Assembly (NCBI RefSeq): GCF_020297055.1
Contig: NZ_JAIXCQ010000001.1
Location: 507,610 to 571,609 of the forward strand
Length of the DNA: 64,000 bases
Reading direction: 5' to 3'
Source: Isoptericola luteus
GTDB lineage: Bacteria; Actinomycetota; Actinomycetes; Actinomycetales; Cellulomonadaceae
Part shown: positions 13,468 to 63,032 of the stretch, in pieces
Position numbering within the stretch: the first letter of the stretch is position 1
Layout of the letters: every line of letters starts with the position of its first letter
Translations under genes and position numbers: made by a program
Notes under the pieces: generated by a model
The model's input: only the letters and a program-made list of their open reading frames with translations
What the model was told of the DNA's origin: nothing
Database searches by the model: none

Positions 13468-14394
13468 ATGACCACGCGCACCTTCCACGGGATCGTCCCG
13501 CCCGTCCTCACCCCGCTCACCGCGGACGGCGAGGTCGACACCGCCTCGCTCGAGCGCCTCGTGCGCCACCTCGTCGAGTCCGGCGTGCACGGCGTGTTCG
13601 TGCTCGGGTCGACCGGCGAGGTCGCCTACCTCACCGACGCGCAGCGCGACCTCGCCGTGCGCACGGTCGTCGCTGCCGTCGACGGGCGCGTGCCGGTGAT
13701 GGGCGGTGCCATCGAGCTCACGACGGCGCGCGTCGCCGCCCAGGCACGGGCGCTCGAGGCCGCAGGGGTCGACGCGGTCGTCGCGACCGCGCCGGTGTAC
13801 GCGATCAACGACGCCGACGAGATCGAGCGGCACCTGCGCGCCGTGGCGGCCGCCGTCGACGTGCCGCTGTTCGCATACGACATCCCCGTGCGCGTGCATC
13901 GCAAGCTCAGCGTCGACCTGCTCGTGCGCCTCGGCGCCGAGGGCGTGCTGGCGGGCGTCAAGGACTCGTCGGGCGACGACGTCGGCTTCCGCCGCCTCGT
14001 GGCGGCGAACGCGGCCGCCGGGTCGCCGCTGGCCCTGTTCACGGGCCACGAGGTCGTCGTGGACGGCATGCTCCTGCTCGGCGCCGACGGCGTCGTGCCG
14101 GGCCTGGGTAACGTCGACGCCGCCGGGTACGTGCGGCTGTGGGACCTGGCCCGGGCCGGCAGGTGGGAGGACGCCAGGGCCGAGCAGGACCGTCTCGCGG
14201 CCCTGTTCGAGATCGTCTTCCAGGCCCAGGGCCGCTCGGGCGACGCCGCGGGCGTCGGGGCGTTCAAGGTCGCCGCGCAGCGCCAGGGCCTCATCGACAG
14301 CACGGCGGCGGCGTTCCCCGTCGAGCCGCTCGACGACGAGACGGCCGAGCGCATCGAGGCGATCGTCCGCGCCGCGGGGCTCCTGGGTGACTGA
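13468..14394 (+). CDS. nanA: N-acetylneuraminate lyase (DHDPS/NAL family)
   Basis: The 308-residue (beta/alpha)8 barrel protein should cleave N-acetylneuraminate to N-acetylmannosamine and pyruvate. Tyr137 (FAYDIP) and the Schiff-base Lys165 (GVKDSSGD) fall at the same numbers as in Escherichia coli NanA, and the substrate-carboxylate loop GSTGE places Ser and Thr at 48-49. The segment GYDE, which contacts the sugar tail in E. coli NanA, reads GHEV here, so side-chain recognition may differ. The start at 13468 follows GGAG. Co-location with nanK, nanE and a sialidase favours NAL over dihydrodipicolinate synthase or another pyruvate-dependent aldolase. Confidence 0.85.
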   Translation: MTTRTFHGIVPPVLTPLTADGEVDTASLERLVRHLVESGVHGVFVLGSTGEVAYLTDAQRDLAVRTVVAAVDGRVPVMGGAIELTTARVAAQARALEAAGVDAVVATAPVYAINDADEIERHLRAVAAAVDVPLFAYDIPVRVHRKLSVDLLVRLGAEGVLAGVKDSSGDDVGFRRLVAANAAAGSPLALFTGHEVVVDGMLLLGADGVVPGLGNVDAAGYVRLWDLARAGRWEDARAEQDRLAALFEIVFQAQGRSGDAAGVGAFKVAAQRQGLIDSTAAAFPVEPLDDETAERIEAIVRAAGLLGD

Positions 14395-15409
14395 GACGCG
14401 CCCTGCGGAGGGGGGCGTCGTCGTCGGCGTCGATCTCGGCGGCACCAAGACGGCGGCCGCCGTCGTGGCCGCCGACGGGTCGCTCGGGCCGGTGCGCACC
14501 GCGCCGACCCCGGCCGCGAGCGGCCCCGCGGCGGTGCTGGACGCCGTCGCCGCGCTGGTCACTGAGGTCGTCCTGGCGGCCGACGCCGGCACCGGCGGAG
14601 CCGGCCTGCGGCTCCGGGCGCTCGGCGTCGGCGCGGCCGGGGTGATCGACGTCGCCCGCGGCGTCGTGGTCTCCGCGACGGAGACGTTCCCCGGCTGGCC
14701 GGGCACCGACATCGCGGGCGGGCTGCGCGAGCGGCTCGCCGCGCTGGCCGCCCCGGGCCCGCTCGACGTCGTCGTCGAGAACGACGTCGACGCGCACGCC
14801 GCGGGCGAGGCCTGGCTCGGCGCGGCGGCGGGGGCGCGCAGCGCGCTCCTCGTGGCCGTGGGCACCGGCGTCGGCGGGGCGGTCGTCCTGGACGGCCGCC
14901 CCCTGCGCGGCGCGCACCACCTCGCCGGCGAGATCGGGCACGCGCCTGTCCCCGGCGCCGAGGGGCTGCGCTGCGCCTGCGGCCGCCCCGGCCACCTGGA
15001 GGCCGTCGCGGCAGGACCCGCGATCCACCGGCACTACCTGCGGCTCGGCGGCGACCCCGCGAGCCCCGACGCGCGTGACGTGGTCGCGCGGGCCGCAGGC
15101 GGCGACGACCTCGCCGCCCGCGTCGTCCGGGCCTCCGGCGAGGCGGTGGGACGGGCGATCGCCGCCGTCGCGACCGTGCTCGACCCCGAGGTGGTCGTCG
15201 TCGGCGGGGGACTGGCCGGCGCAGGAGAGCTCTGGTGGACCGCGCTCCAGGACACCGTCCGCGCCGAGGTGGTGGACGTGCTCGCCGACCTGCCCGTCGT
15301 CCCCGCCGCGCTGGGCGGCGAAGCGGCGATCGTCGGGGCCGCACGGAACGCCTGGGCGGCCGTCGCGCCGTCGGAGGTCACCAGAGCGAACGAGGGAGAC
15401 GCACGATGA
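14387..15409 (+). CDS. nanK: N-acetylmannosamine kinase (ROK family)
   Basis: The 340-residue protein has the ROK ATP-binding start VVVGVDLGGTKTAAAVV, a central ENDVDAHAAGEAW and the zinc loop IGHAPVPGAEGLRCACGRPGHLEA. The third zinc cysteine of the ROK consensus (GC-x-E) is His here. It should phosphorylate N-acetylmannosamine to the 6-phosphate. The GTG start at 14387 overlaps the end of nanA by eight bases, and the stop overlaps nanE as ATGA, so lyase, kinase and epimerase are translationally coupled. By sequence alone it could be another hexose ROK kinase; context decides. Confidence 0.85.
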   Translation: MTETRPAEGGVVVGVDLGGTKTAAAVVAADGSLGPVRTAPTPAASGPAAVLDAVAALVTEVVLAADAGTGGAGLRLRALGVGAAGVIDVARGVVVSATETFPGWPGTDIAGGLRERLAALAAPGPLDVVVENDVDAHAAGEAWLGAAAGARSALLVAVGTGVGGAVVLDGRPLRGAHHLAGEIGHAPVPGAEGLRCACGRPGHLEAVAAGPAIHRHYLRLGGDPASPDARDVVARAAGGDDLAARVVRASGEAVGRAIAAVATVLDPEVVVVGGGLAGAGELWWTALQDTVRAEVVDVLADLPVVPAALGGEAAIVGAARNAWAAVAPSEVTRANEGDAR

Positions 15410-16122
15410 CGGAACCACAGACGGCGCGGCGGCGGGCCTGGACCCGCGAGCGCGTCCTGGACGCGATGCGCGGACGGCTCACCGTCTCGTGCCAGGCGTA
15501 CCCCGGCGAGCCGCTGCGCGACCCGCGCACCACCGCGCAGATGGCCCGCGCCGTCGTCGCGGGCGGCGCCGCTGCCGTGCGGGCACAGGGCCTCGAGGAC
15601 GTCGCCGCCGTCGTGGCAGCCGTCGACGTGCCCGTGGTCGGCCTCTGGAAGGACGGCGAGGACGGGGTGTTCATCACCCCGACGCTGCGGCACGCGGTCG
15701 CCGTCGCCGAGGCCGGGGCGCACGTCGTCGCGATCGACGGCACGAGGCGGCCCCGACCGGACGGGCGCACCCTCGGCGAGACCGTCGCCGGGCTGCGCGA
15801 GGCGGCCGACGTGCTCGTCATGGCGGACTGCGGCTCGCTCGACGACGCCGTCGCAGCGCAGGCCGCCGGGGTCGACCTGCTCGGCACGACGCTCGCCGGC
15901 TACTCCGGCGAGCGGCCCCGGACGGACGGTCCCGACCTCGAGCTCGTCGACGAGATCCTCGCGGCGTGCGACCTGCCCGTCGTCGTCGAGGGCCGGGTGC
16001 ACTCGCCCGCCCACGCGGCTGCCGCGCTCGCGCGCGGCGCGTTCAGCGTGTGCGTGGGGACGGCGATCACGCACCCCACGACCATCACCGGCTGGTTCGC
16101 CGCCGCCCTCCCGCCGAGATAG
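15406..16122 (+). CDS. nanE: N-acetylmannosamine-6-phosphate 2-epimerase
   Basis: The 238-residue TIM-barrel protein matches NanE: SCQAYPGEPLRDP near the start, VVGLWKDG, VVAIDGTRRPRPDG, VMADCGSLDDAVAAQAAGVDLLGTTLAGYS, VVVEGRVHSPAHAAAALARGAFSVCVGTAITHP. The catalytic lysine is in LWKDG. It converts ManNAc-6-P to GlcNAc-6-P; the NagA/NagB steps that would follow are not in this window. The ATG overlaps the nanK stop. The last codons, CCG CCG AGA TAG, lie inside the first unit of the GAGATAG repeat array, so the repeat provides the stop codon. Confidence 0.9.
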   Translation: MTEPQTARRRAWTRERVLDAMRGRLTVSCQAYPGEPLRDPRTTAQMARAVVAGGAAAVRAQGLEDVAAVVAAVDVPVVGLWKDGEDGVFITPTLRHAVAVAEAGAHVVAIDGTRRPRPDGRTLGETVAGLREAADVLVMADCGSLDDAVAAQAAGVDLLGTTLAGYSGERPRTDGPDLELVDEILAACDLPVVVEGRVHSPAHAAAALARGAFSVCVGTAITHPTTITGWFAAALPPR

Positions 16123-16282
16123 AGACCCCCATGTGCCGAGATAGAGACCTCCCCCCGCCGAGATAGAGACCTTCCCCCGCCGAGATAGAGAGGTGCGTGG
16201 CGCTTCTCTATCTCGGCACCGGTGGCTCTCTATCTCGGCACATGGGGGTCTCTATCTCGACGGGGGGAGGTCTCTATCTCGC
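16113..16282. repeat. Inverted array of GCCGAGATAGAGACC units (4 forward + 4 reverse)
   Basis: Forward units begin at 16113, 16135, 16157 and 16179; reverse-complement units end at 16217, 16239, 16260 and 16282. Spacers are 7-9 bases and several are themselves complementary across the array (CCCCCATGT with ACATGGGGG, TCCCCCCG with CGGGGGGA). The innermost pair forms a 13-bp hairpin with a 12-base loop; outer units can pair in more than one register. The array fills the whole gap between convergent nanE and the HAD gene, and both genes stop at the TAG inside GAGATAG. It probably acts at least as a bidirectional terminator. Confidence 0.9.
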
Positions 16283-16975
16283 GGGGGTGGGGGTGACCGG
16301 CAGACGGGTCAGGACGGCGGCGGTGAGGTCGCGGACGTCGTCGACGACGGCGACGGCCCCCGCGGCCAGCAGCTCGCCGTCGTCGGCGTACCCCCAGGAG
16401 ACGCCGAGGCAGTCGATGCCGTGCGCGGCGGCGCCGTGCACGTCGTGCAACCGGTCGCCCACCATGACGACGGGCCCGTCGGCGGGGTCCGCGGGGGTGG
16501 CCCGGCCCAGCGTGGCGAGCGCCGTCGCGATGACGTCCGCCTTCGTGGAGAGGCCCTCCTCCAGGGGTGCGCCGAAGATGCCGTCGACCAGCTCGCTCAG
16601 CCCGAAGCGGTCGCAGATGGGCTTGGCGAAGACCTCCGGCTTGGACGTCGCGACGGCGAGCGCGCAGCCCGCGTCGCGCAGGGCGACGAGCGTCTGCGGG
16701 ATGCCGTCGTACACGCGGTTGTCGTACATGCCGCCGGCGGCGAAGACCGCGCGGTAAGCCACCACGGCCTCGTCGACCCGCGCGGCGGGCACGCCGTGGG
16801 CGGCGAAGGAGTCCGTGATCGGCGGCCCGACGAACGAGCGCAGCGCCGCGTCGTCGGGCACGGGCAGCCCCAGCACGCCGTACGCGTGCCGGATTCCCGC
16901 GAGGATGCCGGGCGCGGAGTCGGTGAGCGTGCCGTCGAGGTCGAGCAGGACAAGAGGCGTGGAGGTGCGAGTCAC
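16274..16975 (-). CDS. HAD-superfamily phosphatase, phosphoglycolate-phosphatase-like
   Basis: The 233-residue protein has HAD motif I DLDGTLTDS (nucleophile Asp12, acid/base Asp14), motif II ATSKP, and the motif III/IV region VVMVGDRLHDVHGAAAHGIDCLGVSWGYAD. The helical cap inserted after motif I is of the Gph/PGMB type. The substrate may be phosphoglycolate or a sugar phosphate; specificity is not visible. The reading frame ends Pro-Ala-Arg-TAG with the stop inside the repeat array. It is 23 bases downstream of the epimerase gene on the same strand, so they likely share a transcript. Confidence 0.85.
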   Translation of the reverse strand: MTRTSTPLVLLDLDGTLTDSAPGILAGIRHAYGVLGLPVPDDAALRSFVGPPITDSFAAHGVPAARVDEAVVAYRAVFAAGGMYDNRVYDGIPQTLVALRDAGCALAVATSKPEVFAKPICDRFGLSELVDGIFGAPLEEGLSTKADVIATALATLGRATPADPADGPVVMVGDRLHDVHGAAAHGIDCLGVSWGYADDGELLAAGAVAVVDDVRDLTAAVLTRLPVTPTPAR

Positions 16976-16998
16976 GACGGCAGGTTACGTGGCCGCCG

Positions 16999-18003
16999 TC
17001 AGACGGCGCGTGCTTGTGCCACCAGCACGTCGAAGCCGACGTCGAGCACGTCGTCGACGACCTGCGCCTCGGGGTGCGCGTCGTACCAGGCGACCTGCTC
17101 GGCCGCGGCCTGGTCGTAGGTGATCGTGGTGCGGAGCTCCGGCACGAGCGCCTGCACCTTGGCGCAGTCGAACACCATCGAGTGGGCCTTGTCGCCGAGC
17201 AGTCCCGGGCCGACGTCGGGCAGCGCGTGCGCGATCGTCTCGGACGCGACGTGCACGAGCTCGGGCTCGTCGACGCCCGCCGCCCGCGCGAGCCAGCGGT
17301 ACACCTGGTCCCAGGTGGGGGCGTGGGTCCCCATGATGTGGAACGAGTCGCCGACGGCGGCGGGGTGGCCGAGCAGCCCGACAAACCCGACCGCGAAGTC
17401 GTCGGTGTGGGTGAGCGTCCACAGCGAGGTGCCGTCGCCGTGCACGACGACGGGCTTGCCGGCGCGCATGCGGGCGACGTCGGTCCAGCCGCCGGTGGTG
17501 GGGATCAGGGTGCGGTCGTAGGTGTGGGAGGGGCGCACGACCGTCGCGGGGAAGCCGCGGTCGCGGTAGGCGCGCACGAGCACGTCCTCGCAGGCGATCT
17601 TGTCGCGGGAGTACTGCCAGAACGGGTTGCGCAGCGGGGTGGACTCGGTCATGGGCAGGCGGTTCGGCGGGGTCTGGTAGGCGGACGCGGAGGAGATGAA
17701 GAGGTACTGTCCCGCCCGGTCGGTGAACCGGGTGACGTCGCGCGCCACGTGGTCCGGGGTGAACGCCCGGAACTGGGCGACGACGTCGAAGTCCCGGCCG
17801 GCGAGCGCGGCGTCCACGGCGGCGTCGTCGGTCACGTCGGCCACCAGCGTCTCGACCTCCGGGGGTAGCGGCCGGGTGGTGGACGTGCCCCGGTTGAGGA
17901 CGGTGACCCGGTGGCCGAGCGCGACCGCCCTTCGGACGCTCGCGGCGCTGATGACGCCGGACCCGCCGATGAACAGGACGTCGAGGGGAGTGCGGATGCT
18001 CAT
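16999..18003 (-). CDS. NAD-dependent epimerase/dehydratase (extended SDR)
   Basis: The 334-residue protein begins with a Rossmann fold (VLFIGGSGVIS at 9-19) and a second-strand LNRG that favours NADP or NAD binding. An active-site Ser-Ser-Ala and the YSRDK tetrad segment (Tyr-x-x-x-Lys at about 129-133) mark an extended short-chain dehydrogenase. The C-terminal half is the sugar-nucleotide-type substrate domain. The substrate is unknown; nearby ketodeoxygluconate genes suggest a sugar or uronate, but this is only context. It starts 60 bases downstream of a 20-bp perfect hairpin that contains the stop of the IclR gene. Confidence 0.8.
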   Translation of the reverse strand: MSIRTPLDVLFIGGSGVISAASVRRAVALGHRVTVLNRGTSTTRPLPPEVETLVADVTDDAAVDAALAGRDFDVVAQFRAFTPDHVARDVTRFTDRAGQYLFISSASAYQTPPNRLPMTESTPLRNPFWQYSRDKIACEDVLVRAYRDRGFPATVVRPSHTYDRTLIPTTGGWTDVARMRAGKPVVVHGDGTSLWTLTHTDDFAVGFVGLLGHPAAVGDSFHIMGTHAPTWDQVYRWLARAAGVDEPELVHVASETIAHALPDVGPGLLGDKAHSMVFDCAKVQALVPELRTTITYDQAAAEQVAWYDAHPEAQVVDDVLDVGFDVLVAQARAV

Positions 18004-18062
18004 GGCGGCATCGTGCCCGAGCGAGCGGGGGTCGGCATCAGCGGGCCGGAATCGACAGGGCC

Positions 18063-18125
18063 CCGTCGACGTAGCGATCTCTCACCGTCCCGGCGCGGGA
18101 TGACGAGAGATCGCTACGTCGACGG
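18063..18125. repeat. 20-bp perfect inverted repeat containing the iclR stop codon
   Basis: Arms 18063-18082 and 18106-18125 are perfectly complementary around a 23-base loop. The outer part contains GTCGACGTAGCGATCTCT. The TAG stop of the IclR gene (18114-18116) lies inside the right arm. The element separates the IclR gene from the downstream epimerase on the same strand and probably terminates iclR transcription. Confidence 0.85.
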
Positions 18126-18869
18126 CGCCGGGACGGTCATGCCGGGCGGGAGCGCCGCGGGCAGGGCGTCGAGCAGGGCCGCGACGCGGGCGGCGCGGGG
18201 CTCGCCCGTCATCCGCTCGACGGGCGCGGTGACGCTCACCGCGGCCACGGGCCGGCCGGCGCGCAGCACGGCGACGGCGACGCACGCGATCCCGGGCTCG
18301 TTCTCCTCGGTCTCGGTGGCGTACCCGAGGCGGCGGGCGTCGGCGACGGTGGCGGTGAGCCGTGCGACGTCCTCCGCGTCGGTGGCGTACCGGGCGAGGT
18401 GGATCTCCCGCGGGTCGTGCGCCGCGAGCAGCGCACGACCGAGCGCCGTGGTCGCGGCCGGCTGGCGGCGCCCGACGGCGGACCAGACCCGTACGGGCCG
18501 CTGCGGCTCGACCTTGTCCAGGTAGACGACCTCCCGGCCCGCGAGGGTGCCGAGGTGCACGAGCTCGTCGACGTCGTCGCGCAGGCGCTCGAGCGCGGGC
18601 CGCAGCAGCGCGGGCAGGTTGTCCTCGGCGAGGAACGCCGTGCCGAGCGCCAGCACGGCGGGCCCGAGGCGGTAGCCGCCGTCGTCGGCCTGCTCGGCGT
18701 AGCCGCGGTGCCGCAGCGCCGCGAGGGTGCGGTGCAGGGTGGACTTGTTGGCCCCGACGTCGGCGGCGAGCCGGGCGAGCGAGAGCCCGCCGGCTCCGGC
18801 GCGAGCGAGCGCGTCGAGCGCGAGGAGGGCCTTGTCGACGCTGCCCAGGGGGCTCGCGGATTCCGTCAT
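18114..18869 (-). CDS. IclR-family transcriptional regulator, probable KDG-pathway regulator
   Basis: The 251-residue protein has an N-terminal winged helix (about 8-70; GSVDKALLALDAL, LARLAADVGANKSTLHRTLAALRHRGY) and the IclR effector domain (TLAGREVVYLDKVE, TALGRALLA, ATETEENEPGIACVAVAVL). It is divergent from the KDPG aldolase and KDG kinase genes; regulators of this type (KdgR) commonly respond to ketodeoxygluconate. The start at 18869 has a weak ACGGAG site. The stop lies in a hairpin arm. Confidence 0.87.
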   Translation of the reverse strand: MTESASPLGSVDKALLALDALARAGAGGLSLARLAADVGANKSTLHRTLAALRHRGYAEQADDGGYRLGPAVLALGTAFLAEDNLPALLRPALERLRDDVDELVHLGTLAGREVVYLDKVEPQRPVRVWSAVGRRQPAATTALGRALLAAHDPREIHLARYATDAEDVARLTATVADARRLGYATETEENEPGIACVAVAVLRAGRPVAAVSVTAPVERMTGEPRAARVAALLDALPAALPPGMTVPAPST

Positions 18870-18892
18870 CGTGCTCCGTCGTCTAGAGTGCG

Positions 18893-18921
18893 TTGCGTAG
18901 TGAACAACTGGCGTTCATCAT
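18893..18921 (+). promoter_or_regulatory. Promoter and IclR operator for the KDG genes
   Basis: TTGCGT (18893-18898) and CATCAT (18916-18921) form a -35/-10 pair with 17-base spacing. The spacer holds TGAAC-N7-GTTCA (18901-18917), a palindrome of the shape bound by IclR proteins. It lies between the divergent iclR and aldolase genes, so binding would occlude RNA polymerase. Confidence 0.55.
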
Positions 18922-18938
18922 AGCGAAACGGAGTGGGA

Positions 18939-19580
18939 ATGTCATCCGCAGTCCTCGACAGCCTCGCCGCACACCGGCTCGTCCCCGTCGTCGTGGTCGA
19001 CGGCGCCGACCAGGGGGCGCGCCTCGCCGACGCGCTCGTCACCGGCGGCCTGCCCGTCGCCGAGATCACCCTGCGCACGGCCGGCGGCCTCGACGCGATC
19101 CGCGCCGTCGCGCAGACCCAGTCCGGTGTCGTCGTCGGCGCGGGCACCGTGACCACCGCGGGGCAGGTGGACGACGTCGTCGCCGCGGGCGCGCGCTACA
19201 TCGTCTCCCCCGGCCTGTCCGAGGCCGTCGTGCGACGGGCGCAGGAGCACGGCGTCCCCGTGCTGCCCGGCGTGGCGACCGCTACCGAGATCATGCGCGC
19301 GCTCGACCTGGGCGTCGACGTCGTCAAGCTGTTCCCCGCCTCCGTCGTCGGCGGGCCGGCGGCGATCAGGGCGCTGGCCGCACCGTTCCCCGGCCTCCGG
19401 TTCGTGCCCACCGGCGGCGTGAGCGCCCAGAACCTCGGCGAGTACCTGTCCCTGGCGCCCGTCGTCGCCGTCGGCGGCTCGTGGATGGTCGAGAAGTCCC
19501 TCGTGACCGCCGGCGACTGGGCCGAGATCACCCGCCGCACCGTCGAGGCCGTCGCCCTCGCCGCCCCGAAGGAGAAGTGA
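18939..19580 (+). CDS. eda: 2-dehydro-3-deoxyphosphogluconate (KDPG) aldolase
   Basis: The 213-residue class I aldolase should split KDPG to pyruvate and glyceraldehyde-3-phosphate. Glu42 (VAEITLRT) and the Schiff-base Lys130 (DVVKLFPAS) match the family pair (Glu45/Lys133 in E. coli) with the same spacing, and GGV near 160 binds phosphate. The ATG at 18939 is preferred over GTG at 18933 because GGAG lies five bases before it. The kinase gene follows after six bases. The enzyme receives uronate carbon from the uxu/uxa genes at 39-49 kb. Confidence 0.9.
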   Translation: MSSAVLDSLAAHRLVPVVVVDGADQGARLADALVTGGLPVAEITLRTAGGLDAIRAVAQTQSGVVVGAGTVTTAGQVDDVVAAGARYIVSPGLSEAVVRRAQEHGVPVLPGVATATEIMRALDLGVDVVKLFPASVVGGPAAIRALAAPFPGLRFVPTGGVSAQNLGEYLSLAPVVAVGGSWMVEKSLVTAGDWAEITRRTVEAVALAAPKEK

Positions 19581-56906: not shown

Positions 56907-56940
56907 CCCTCCGCCGCTGCCCACCCCGTCCGCTGTGGGC

Positions 56941-57063
56941 GGGGGGGGGGGGGGGGGGGGGGGGGGGCCCGCCCCCCCCCCCCCCCCGGGGGGGCCCGCC
57001 CCCCCCGCCGGGGGGGGGGGGGGGCCGCCCCGGTTGCCCCCCCCCCCCCGGCCCCCCCCCCCC
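56941..57063. other. Extreme G/C homopolymer tract, probable sequencing or assembly artefact
   Basis: The tract starts with 27 consecutive G and continues with runs of up to 16 C and G, with almost no other base. It lies between convergent genes, flanked by complementary words (CCGCTGTGGGCGGG left, CCCGCTCACAGCG right). That pattern suggests a real hairpin whose centre was not read correctly. Long open frames of Pro and Gly crossing it are meaningless. Confidence 0.75.
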
Positions 57064-57091
57064 GCTCACAGCGACGACGGGTGGGGAGTGG

Positions 57092-62732: not shown

Positions 62733-62744
62733 ACCGCCGCGACC

Positions 62745-63032
62745 TGTCAGGACGAGGGCCACGAAGACGTGCACGTGACCCTGACAGGTCGCAGCGCCCG
62801 GGAGCTGTCAGGACGAGGACCACGAAGACGTGCACGTGACCCTGACAGGTCGCAGCGCCCGGGAGCTGTCAGGACGAGGGCGATGAAGACGTGCACGTGG
62901 CCCTGACAGGTCGCAGCGCCCGGGAGCTGTCAGGACGAGGGCGATGAATACGTGCACGTGGCCCTGACAGGTCGCAGCGCCCGGGAGCTGTCAGGACGAG
63001 GATCACGAAGACGTGCACGTGACCCTGACGCG
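62745..63032. repeat. Five-fold tandem array of the 44-bp palindromic element (61-bp period)
   Basis: Elements begin at 62745, 62806, 62867, 62928 and 62989, each 44 bp with CTGTCAGG ... CCTGACAG ends and an ACGTGCACGTG centre, separated by a constant 17-bp spacer GTCGCAGCGCCCGGGAG. The last unit ends in a degenerate CCTGACGC. Copies differ at a few inner sites. The array occupies most of the 426-bp gap between rhaM and the isomerase. Confidence 0.9.

Follow-up and report, generated by a model that had tools for sequence, protein, structure and literature searches.

Plasmid-origin iterons are short, protein-bound direct repeats with a pitch of about 19-22 bp, and the mycobacterial interspersed repetitive units are actinobacterial intergenic repeats that overlap flanking stop codons, have longer units than those reported here and lie chiefly in codirectional gaps; we know of no facing inverted arrays or dialects among the latter. 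The portions of two reports drawn on here (PMC3733652, PMC3116915) describe REP, BIME and REPIN sequences as dispersed extragenic repeats found mostly downstream of genes, in convergent or unidirectional gaps and often in opposite pairs. The DUS of Neisseriaceae are presented, in the part of the source used here, as short sequences with species dialects around a common inner motif, with inverted pairs tied to terminators and with 2245 and 3269 copies in two genomes (PMC3630211). No published description of arrays like those examined in this study was found in the open-licence literature, a weak absence given that scope.

The window analyzed here is a 64,000-nucleotide stretch of the genome of Isoptericola luteus (G000; other G numbers denote compared genomes and L numbers denote loci). 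Between nanE and a convergent HAD-family hydrolase gene it contains eight 11-bp cores, four forward followed by four reverse, at positions 16115-16281 (Table 1). An earlier note on this DNA had described an inverted 4+4 repeat in this gap and had placed both stop codons at the TAG of the outermost units; the repeat search and the coordinates agree with it on both points, with the HAD gene ending ..CCC GCG AGA TAG inside the outermost reverse core. The pitch in each half is exactly 22 bp, and GAGATAGAGAC, with at most one mismatch, has 8 matches in the window compared to a mean of 0.36 and a maximum of 2 in 100 shuffles. As RNA, the locus folds at -157.4 kcal/mol (z -12.75 relative to shuffles); the forward half alone does not fold above shuffles as either RNA or DNA, nor does the reverse half as DNA. 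Two spacers recur across the halves, one of them with a change, and, read in the sense direction, the spacers run A,B,C on the nanE side and B',A,D on the HAD side, so the halves are not a simple inverted duplicate of a single block. The earlier suggestion of growth by inverted duplication of blocks therefore has the two common spacers in its favor and their order against it. A scan of positions 15500-17000, limited to the classical terminator form (a GC-rich hairpin plus a U-tract), returned no sites, the hairpin being present and the T-run absent. At positions 14000-19000 no Rfam family matched at gathering score, and in further Rfam scans the sole matches were microRNA models far below their own thresholds. 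Elsewhere in the window, a direct tandem array at 62737-63029 (61-bp unit, 4.8 copies, 93% match) contains CTGTCAGGAC...CTGACAGG in its unit, and a single pair resembling CTGTCAGGAC...CTGACAGG lies at 709-746. Long G and C runs occur at 56937-57064 and also in the array centers of L040, L043 and L058 (the last with N as well), and these runs, some of them within arrays, look like assembly artefacts.

Table 1. Features of the nanE/HAD locus, in positions of the window.
Feature	Positions	Strand	Remarks
nanE	15406..16122	+	Pfam NanE PF04131, E 4e-51; last codons CCG CCG AGA TAG within forward core 1
Forward core 1, CGAGATAGAGA	16115..16125	+	its TAG at 16120-16122 is the nanE stop
Forward core 2	16137..16147	+	sequence, repeat search
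Forward core 3	16159..16169	+	sequence, repeat search
Forward core 4	16181..16191	+	sequence, repeat search
Center between halves, 13 bp	16192..16204		no internal perfect 7-bp stem
Reverse core 4	16205..16215	-	sequence, repeat search
Reverse core 3	16227..16237	-	sequence, repeat search
Reverse core 2	16249..16259	-	sequence, repeat search
Reverse core 1	16271..16281	-	contains the HAD stop, TAG at 16274-16276 (minus strand)
HAD-family hydrolase gene, convergent with nanE	16274..16975	-	Pfam HAD_2 PF13419, E 1.1e-18

The 10-bp core GAGATAGAGA occurs 137 times in the 3.97-Mb genome G000 (74 forward, 63 reverse), its reversed control occurs 0 times, and 81 pairs of cores lie 20-23 bp apart. Flanking sequence was read for 36 loci, drawn from places among the matches listed, and genes were called with our own codon-usage script, which missed at least one real gene. 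By these calls, 47 of the 51 same-strand runs of two or more cores lie behind a called gene read in their own direction, at -8 to +38 nt relative to its stop codon, and their orientation differs from random (p = 1e-10, near-copies L039 and L040 counted); the four runs without a called sense gene belong to L052, L060, L065 and L066. All 17 adjacent opposite runs point inward. By hand count, 23 of the 30 loci uncut by a contig end are convergent (21 of 28 without L039 and L040), compared to 52 of 339 gaps in a sampled relative (p = 1e-13). One-sided sense arrays occupy the codirectional gaps L055 and L063, and at L056 an inverted array separates ndh from a tRNA-Leu gene of the same orientation. 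The search for further copies that the earlier note had proposed thus places nearly all of those in G000 at 3' gene ends; most convergent pairs have arrays on both sides, and some codirectional gaps have a one-sided array. The idea that the element serves to supply stop codons did not survive this wider set, as the stop codon lies within a core in 18 of the 47 runs with a sense gene, no excess over the one-third expected from frame (p = 0.54), and cores of the forms CGAGTCAGCGC and CGAGACAGGG are stop-free in every sense frame; that function was rejected, and the stop codons supplied by arrays look incidental.

Several features of the assembly and of single loci accompany these counts. The near-identical array loci L031/L032 (contig C1) and L039/L040 (contig C3), about 15 kb apart on two contigs, indicate a segment duplicated in the genome or in the assembly; L039 and L040, as near-copies of L031 and L032, were excluded only from the counts of core and spacer conservation and of mirrored variants. 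Six contig ends, namely the starts of C7, C8, C9, C15 and C26 (L046, L047, L048, L054, L066) and the end of C6 (L045), lie within arrays or no more than about 70 bp from them, so the assembly was probably broken by arrays and their true number may be higher. The interval between pepN and its convergent neighbor contains a 333-aa gene (L062:3241-4242) with an array on either side. This gene was rejected as a transposase because Pfam gave no match at E 0.001 and because, in G149 and G003, the corresponding position holds genes of similar length that by eye are alike at their ends; it seems to be an inherited gene of the ordinary kind.

The arrays follow a common plan in which a stop codon is followed by tandem cores and then usually by a hairpin, with convergent pairs consisting of two modules that share one apex. 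A perfect GC stem of 9-21 bp lies in the center of L032, L034, L042, L052, L056 and L062, at or beside the innermost cores in the first four of these. The center is just 3-14 bp long in L031, L033, L035, L036, L039, L044, L049, L050, L051, L053, L057 and L064, so that the innermost forward and reverse cores would pair, and L038 and L059 have longer centers without a 7-bp perfect stem. Among the one-sided arrays, L048, L054, L055 and L060 are directly followed by a hairpin, L063 has just a 7-bp stem about 100 bp off, and L037, L061 and L065 have no stem of 7 bp within 120 bp. L063 (z -2.3) and L055 with its abutting hairpin (z -3.05) fold above shuffles, and the one-sided array in L356 does not. 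A single unit of G000 folds at 0 kcal/mol as DNA and as RNA, a unit pair from genus g8 (genomes G118 and G134) folds no better than shuffles (z 1.1), and a unit pair from G141 forms a weak stem (-6.4 kcal/mol, z -0.7).

The exact double core of G000 was found in 6 of 150 genomes of the family, and arrays in relatives have the same design with other cores, of the pattern CGAG-N-YAG-NNN, at a species-typical pitch of 19-22 bp. At the pepN end, the core is GAGATAGAGC in G110, GAGGTAGGCA in G058 and G042, GAGGTAGCGC in G141, G150 and G151, GAGGTAGAAC in G137, and GAGTCAGCGC in G122 and G094. Read pattern-free, these pepN dialects share CGAG-N-YAG except in degenerate units, an invariant inner motif as in DUS. 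Additional dialects were also read, but those found by searching for CGAG-N-YAG cannot test the invariance of that motif. At least 10 occurrences per strand of CGAG-N-YAG repeated after 10-16 bp were counted in 45 of 150 family genomes (11 of 25 genera) and in 2 of 229 genomes from other families of the order, both hand counts from rows with most matches uninspected. The reversed-pattern control reached at least 10 on both strands in only one of those 45 genomes (G090); in one scan the reversed pattern was about as frequent as the pattern itself, being the same repeat shifted by one base, and was not used as a control. A scan of named genomes gave, among the matches listed, Isoptericola, Puerhibacterium and Krasilnikoviella, together with single matches in unrelated taxa that were taken as chance. 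In a tree of 18 genomes, the dialect switches between the close sisters G058 and G094, and the array-poor G132 and G072 group with G000, G145, G149 and G110, in a branching order that the tree does not settle; of the 18 genomes of the genus, 15 carry arrays and three (G021, G072, G132) are nearly array-free.

The pitch is 19 bp in G093, G107, G041 and two genomes outside the family. Counting same-strand spacings of 18-24 bp, it is 20 bp in 37 of 37 spacings in G141 and 8 of 8 in G122, 21 bp in 115 of 121 in g8, and 21 or 22 bp in 90 of 91 in G000. A core-free scan for tandem 9-mer pairs at 17-24 bp also gave a pitch of 20 in G141 (267 of 303 pairs) and G122 (36 of 45), and no pitch peak among the 23 pairs of G021. 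Strict two-turn DNA phasing was set aside as loosely supported at most, because the pitch varies from 19 to 22 bp between species. Outside G000, a called sense gene precedes 8 of 13 runs in G141, 2 of 4 in G122 and 33 of 47 in g8, where one array pair points outward. Of the five remaining G141 runs, one lies behind a real gene missed by the script and one behind a gene that was called only weakly; two more are the antisense halves of inverted arrays that occupy codirectional gaps, and the fifth stands alone as an antisense run of five. Of the exact 11-mer cores in a 400-kb sample of G141, 35 lie outside genes or in their last 15 bp and 4 lie inside, compared to totals of 0, 1 and 2 in simulations. 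When one mismatch is allowed, 52 of the 66 core clusters in G141 fall within genes, nearly all as single one-mismatch cores; such cores number 73 compared to 44-58 in simulations, so most of them are attributable to chance.

Judged by the features that the sections cited above give for REP, BIME and REPIN, the arrays are similarly dispersed, extragenic, gene-downstream (47 of 51 runs at called sense ends in G000) and often in opposite orientation; however, the G000 unit is non-palindromic and does not fold, the arrays are tandem at a pitch of 19-22 bp with species dialects of one core, and no Y1 transposase was found in the 18 genomes of the genus. A REP/RAYT origin was rejected on the unit folding and on the lack of a Y1 match in those 18 genomes. 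Like mycobacterial interspersed repetitive units, the arrays are intergenic and overlap stop codons, but they have shorter units, facing pairs and dialects. Like plasmid iterons, they are short direct repeats at a pitch of about 19-22 bp, but they occur dozens of times along the chromosome, at the ends of genes and in facing pairs.

Orthologous gene ends carry either arrays or other structures. The pepN end has an array in 12 of the 18 genomes of the genus, and all 6 genomes without one have a perfect GC stem of 11-23 bp. Perfect stems of at least 11 bp are present in 6 of 6 array-free but only 3 of 12 array-bearing genomes (Fisher p = 0.009), a contrast that serves as a guide only, because the genomes are related, the cut-off was set post hoc, cores were masked ahead of the stem search and the array-bearing G094 and G137 have imperfect hairpins at this end. 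The L050 gene end has arrays in 4 of the 18 genomes, with various hairpins or none in the rest, and the ndh end has arrays in three genomes and a single core in a fourth; both ends are array-free in most relatives, so the sites are not strictly kept. At the ndh end in G149, G110 and G145 (L224, L226, L227), arrays or a single core replace a stretch that is conserved in array-free relatives, and arrays between ndh and tRNA-Leu may have changed transcription of the tRNA. In G058, G021, G116, G094, G122 and G042 (L373, L376, L377, L380, L382, L384), the L050 gene end shows long inverted repeats beginning CGAGCGTGC where G000 has an array, and by eye these repeats form a separate family of gene-end hairpins.

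The nanE/HAD pair itself is array-free in G132, an array-poor genome of the same genus, with 15 bp between the convergent stops, a 7-bp hairpin around the HAD stop, and a nanE C-terminus (...ARALP) two residues shorter than that of G000 (...AAALPPR); the window array was therefore either gained in G000 or lost in G132. The convergent pair was not seen in G084 and G103, which hold the other strong nanE matches. As evidence against its proposal, the earlier note had named nanE/HAD orthologues that stop at those residues, lack the repeat and show no termination at the site; G132 goes half of the way, as its pair is array-free and ends close by, with a short hairpin instead. In 400-kb samples examined by eye, long inverted repeats occupy the gaps orthologous to L049 and L062 (G021), L052 (G141) and L064 (G122), and the gap orthologous to L050 in G141 holds an array in another dialect. 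Neither an array nor an inverted repeat was clear by eye at the gaps orthologous to L051 and L054 in G141 or at a doubtful match to L058 in G122. Allowing one mismatch, another hairpin of at least 12 bp is found in 0 of 5 array-bearing versus 13 of 43 array-free short convergent gaps of G141, a small sample, and in 13 of 58 short convergent gaps of G021.

Conservation is uneven within the arrays. In G000, 125 of 145 cores at pitch positions beside a good core are exact, and spacers compared between loci are 0.49 identical versus 0.50 from composition alone. Exact cores number 35 of 69 in G141, with spacers at 0.38 versus 0.41 expected, and 75 of 183 in g8, where the spacers themselves are partly conserved. 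Spacer length is near-constant in G000 and G141 despite the saturated spacer sequence. Core variants are mirrored on the opposite half in 0 of 8 loci in G000, 1 of 4 in G141 and 2 of 9 in g8. Facing spacers in G141 are no more alike than chance (0.39); in G000 they reach 0.61 versus 0.49 by chance, and tandem neighbors reach 0.71, a pattern that would fit recent local copying and leave room for pairing. Taken together, the exact cores, saturated spacers and unmirrored variants of G000 suggest that the core itself is read. Core sequence and spacing seem to be kept more than the pairing of halves in G000 and G141, and a trans-acting reader would be the simplest cause. Spacers are 57% C and 28% G in G000 and 31% C and 42% G in g8; C-rich spacers acting as Rho sites were rejected as a general account, since those of g8 are richer in G than in C.

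With somewhat less than even confidence, we interpret the window array as one member of a genome-wide set of gene-end modules that are read by a putative factor. Each module would consist of a stop codon, about 2-8 tandem sense cores of 10-11 bp at the species-typical pitch, and usually a hairpin, which would be either a GC hairpin located on or close to the last core or one made up of the innermost cores facing across a short center; at a convergent pair, two modules would face across a single apex. A putative sequence-specific, trans-acting factor would bind the cores, either as DNA or as sites in the nascent 3' UTR, and the core spacing would let adjacent bound copies touch. The factor would secure termination or 3'-end formation and would limit read-through into the opposing gene. 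Its specificity may drift, with the sites following, and such co-evolution would give rise to the species dialects.

There are several potential alternatives to a dedicated reader, the first of which involves mobility. Genus g8 contains a 186-bp non-coding dispersed element that forms a hairpin with 27-bp arms (one copy at L361:2498-2683). Sitting 3' of an array are 12 of its 13 copies in the fetched g8 DNA, which was chosen around arrays, so that stray copies would be missed, and which covers 19 loci from listed places taken partly for far-apart arrays, so that the share with the hairpin element is biased upward. Eleven copies (query included) are 88-94% alike, one is 70% alike and one is partial. 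The same array-plus-hairpin module lies behind several unrelated genes in the two genomes, and the L356 cluster contains three successive codirectional genes, each with a sense array. Array modules do spread, or else they are copied, and the "two-sided, portable gene-end module" of the earlier note is a fair description of a pattern much broader than the window. It is possible, if on the whole doubtful, that the arrays represent a non-autonomous mobile repeat (MITE- or REPIN-like), the ends of which would be tandem sites of a putative enzyme, with insertion at gene ends being harmless and any terminator role secondary. The joining of g8 arrays to the dispersed hairpin keeps such a repeat a strong rival, and it would also explain the patchy presence among genomes, the orthologous gaps without arrays and the one outward-pointing array pair of g8.

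However, a decaying repeat would predict something other than the exact cores and saturated spacers of G000. Y1/RAYT transposases (Y1_Tnp, PF01797) match 0 of the 18 genus genomes compared to 5 of 14 control genomes; the ten centers examined between g8 arrays contain no gene by our own calls; and no parent transposase for a MITE was found, with facing arrays and a dispersed hairpin present in g8. The double core of the G000 dialect occurs in 0 viral contigs and matches no phage or plasmid record, the 186-bp element likewise has no match in phage or plasmid records, and one copy of it has no Rfam match near gathering level; a phage or plasmid origin was rejected on these results. A looser viral scan gave 101 stretches, and the 80 listed each have a single match, taken as chance. 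The interpretations by a reader, by mobility and by hairpins alone overlap, as arrays may have multiplied through copying and also serve the host.

It is unlikely that the arrays are simply intrinsic bidirectional terminators, in which both transcripts fold into long hairpins through the inverted arrays and the core recurs only because it was copied along. They do resemble intrinsic terminators in following the stop codon, in often being closed by a GC hairpin, and in alternating with hairpins at orthologous ends, as at pepN, at nanE/HAD and, by eye, at L049, L052, L062 and L064; the strong fold of the window locus, the inward arrangement of runs, the GC hairpins central to several arrays, the better-than-chance likeness of facing G000 spacers and the folding of L063 and of L055 with its hairpin all agree with such a role. 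They differ from intrinsic terminators in that the scan of the window locus found no classical terminator, tandem cores precede the hairpin, and one core is used genome-wide, which hairpin formation does not need. Furthermore, no core variant is mirrored in G000, facing spacers in G141 are at chance, L037, L061 and L065 have no nearby stem, and the forward half of the window array and the one-sided array of L356 fold like shuffles. A terminator resting on the inverted repeat alone is thus not enough, given the unmirrored core variants and the one-sided arrays.

It is very improbable that the arrays act at the DNA level as sites of supercoiling or nucleoid proteins, at points where positive supercoils accumulate through convergent transcription. 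BIMEs contain gyrase or IHF sites, and the convergent bias of the arrays and their pitch of about two helical turns would suit such a site, but one-sided arrays also occupy codirectional gaps (L055, L063, L356), and conserved housekeeping proteins would not need species dialects. There is hardly any likelihood of a DNA uptake (competence) signal that has settled in terminators, since the arrays, which in being short and dialect-bearing around a constant inner motif and inverted at gene ends resemble DUS as the part of the source used here presents them (PMC3630211), are far fewer (137 copies in 3.97 Mb, not thousands), are tandem at a fixed pitch and lie mostly at gene ends, with the 35 to 4 split of exact G141 cores opposing the very high copy number and presence in coding regions associated with DUS.

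Within the interpretation of gene-end modules read by a putative factor, a narrower version is conceivable but rather doubtful, namely that a lineage-specific, fast-evolving putative factor reads tandem fixed-pitch arrays on the stop side of a terminator hairpin, such that a shift in the factor re-spells all arrays. To our knowledge, how transcripts end without U-tracts in GC-rich actinobacteria is poorly settled. The arrays amount to a definite cis element that recurs dozens of times in G000, accompanied by orthologous gaps that lack arrays, by hairpins at corresponding gene ends of relatives and by several dialects in a single genus, and the question thereby becomes testable through the identity of the core reader and through joint change of factor and sites. 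The arrays may also explain breaks in assemblies, and they offer a two-sided gene-end part. If they prove to be a mobile repeat, it would be an unusual one, with a non-palindromic core that is exact in G000, free spacers and a tandem fixed pitch. If the reading by a putative factor is true, these arrays would constitute an array-coded, dialect-bearing system of termination or 3'-end formation in bacteria.
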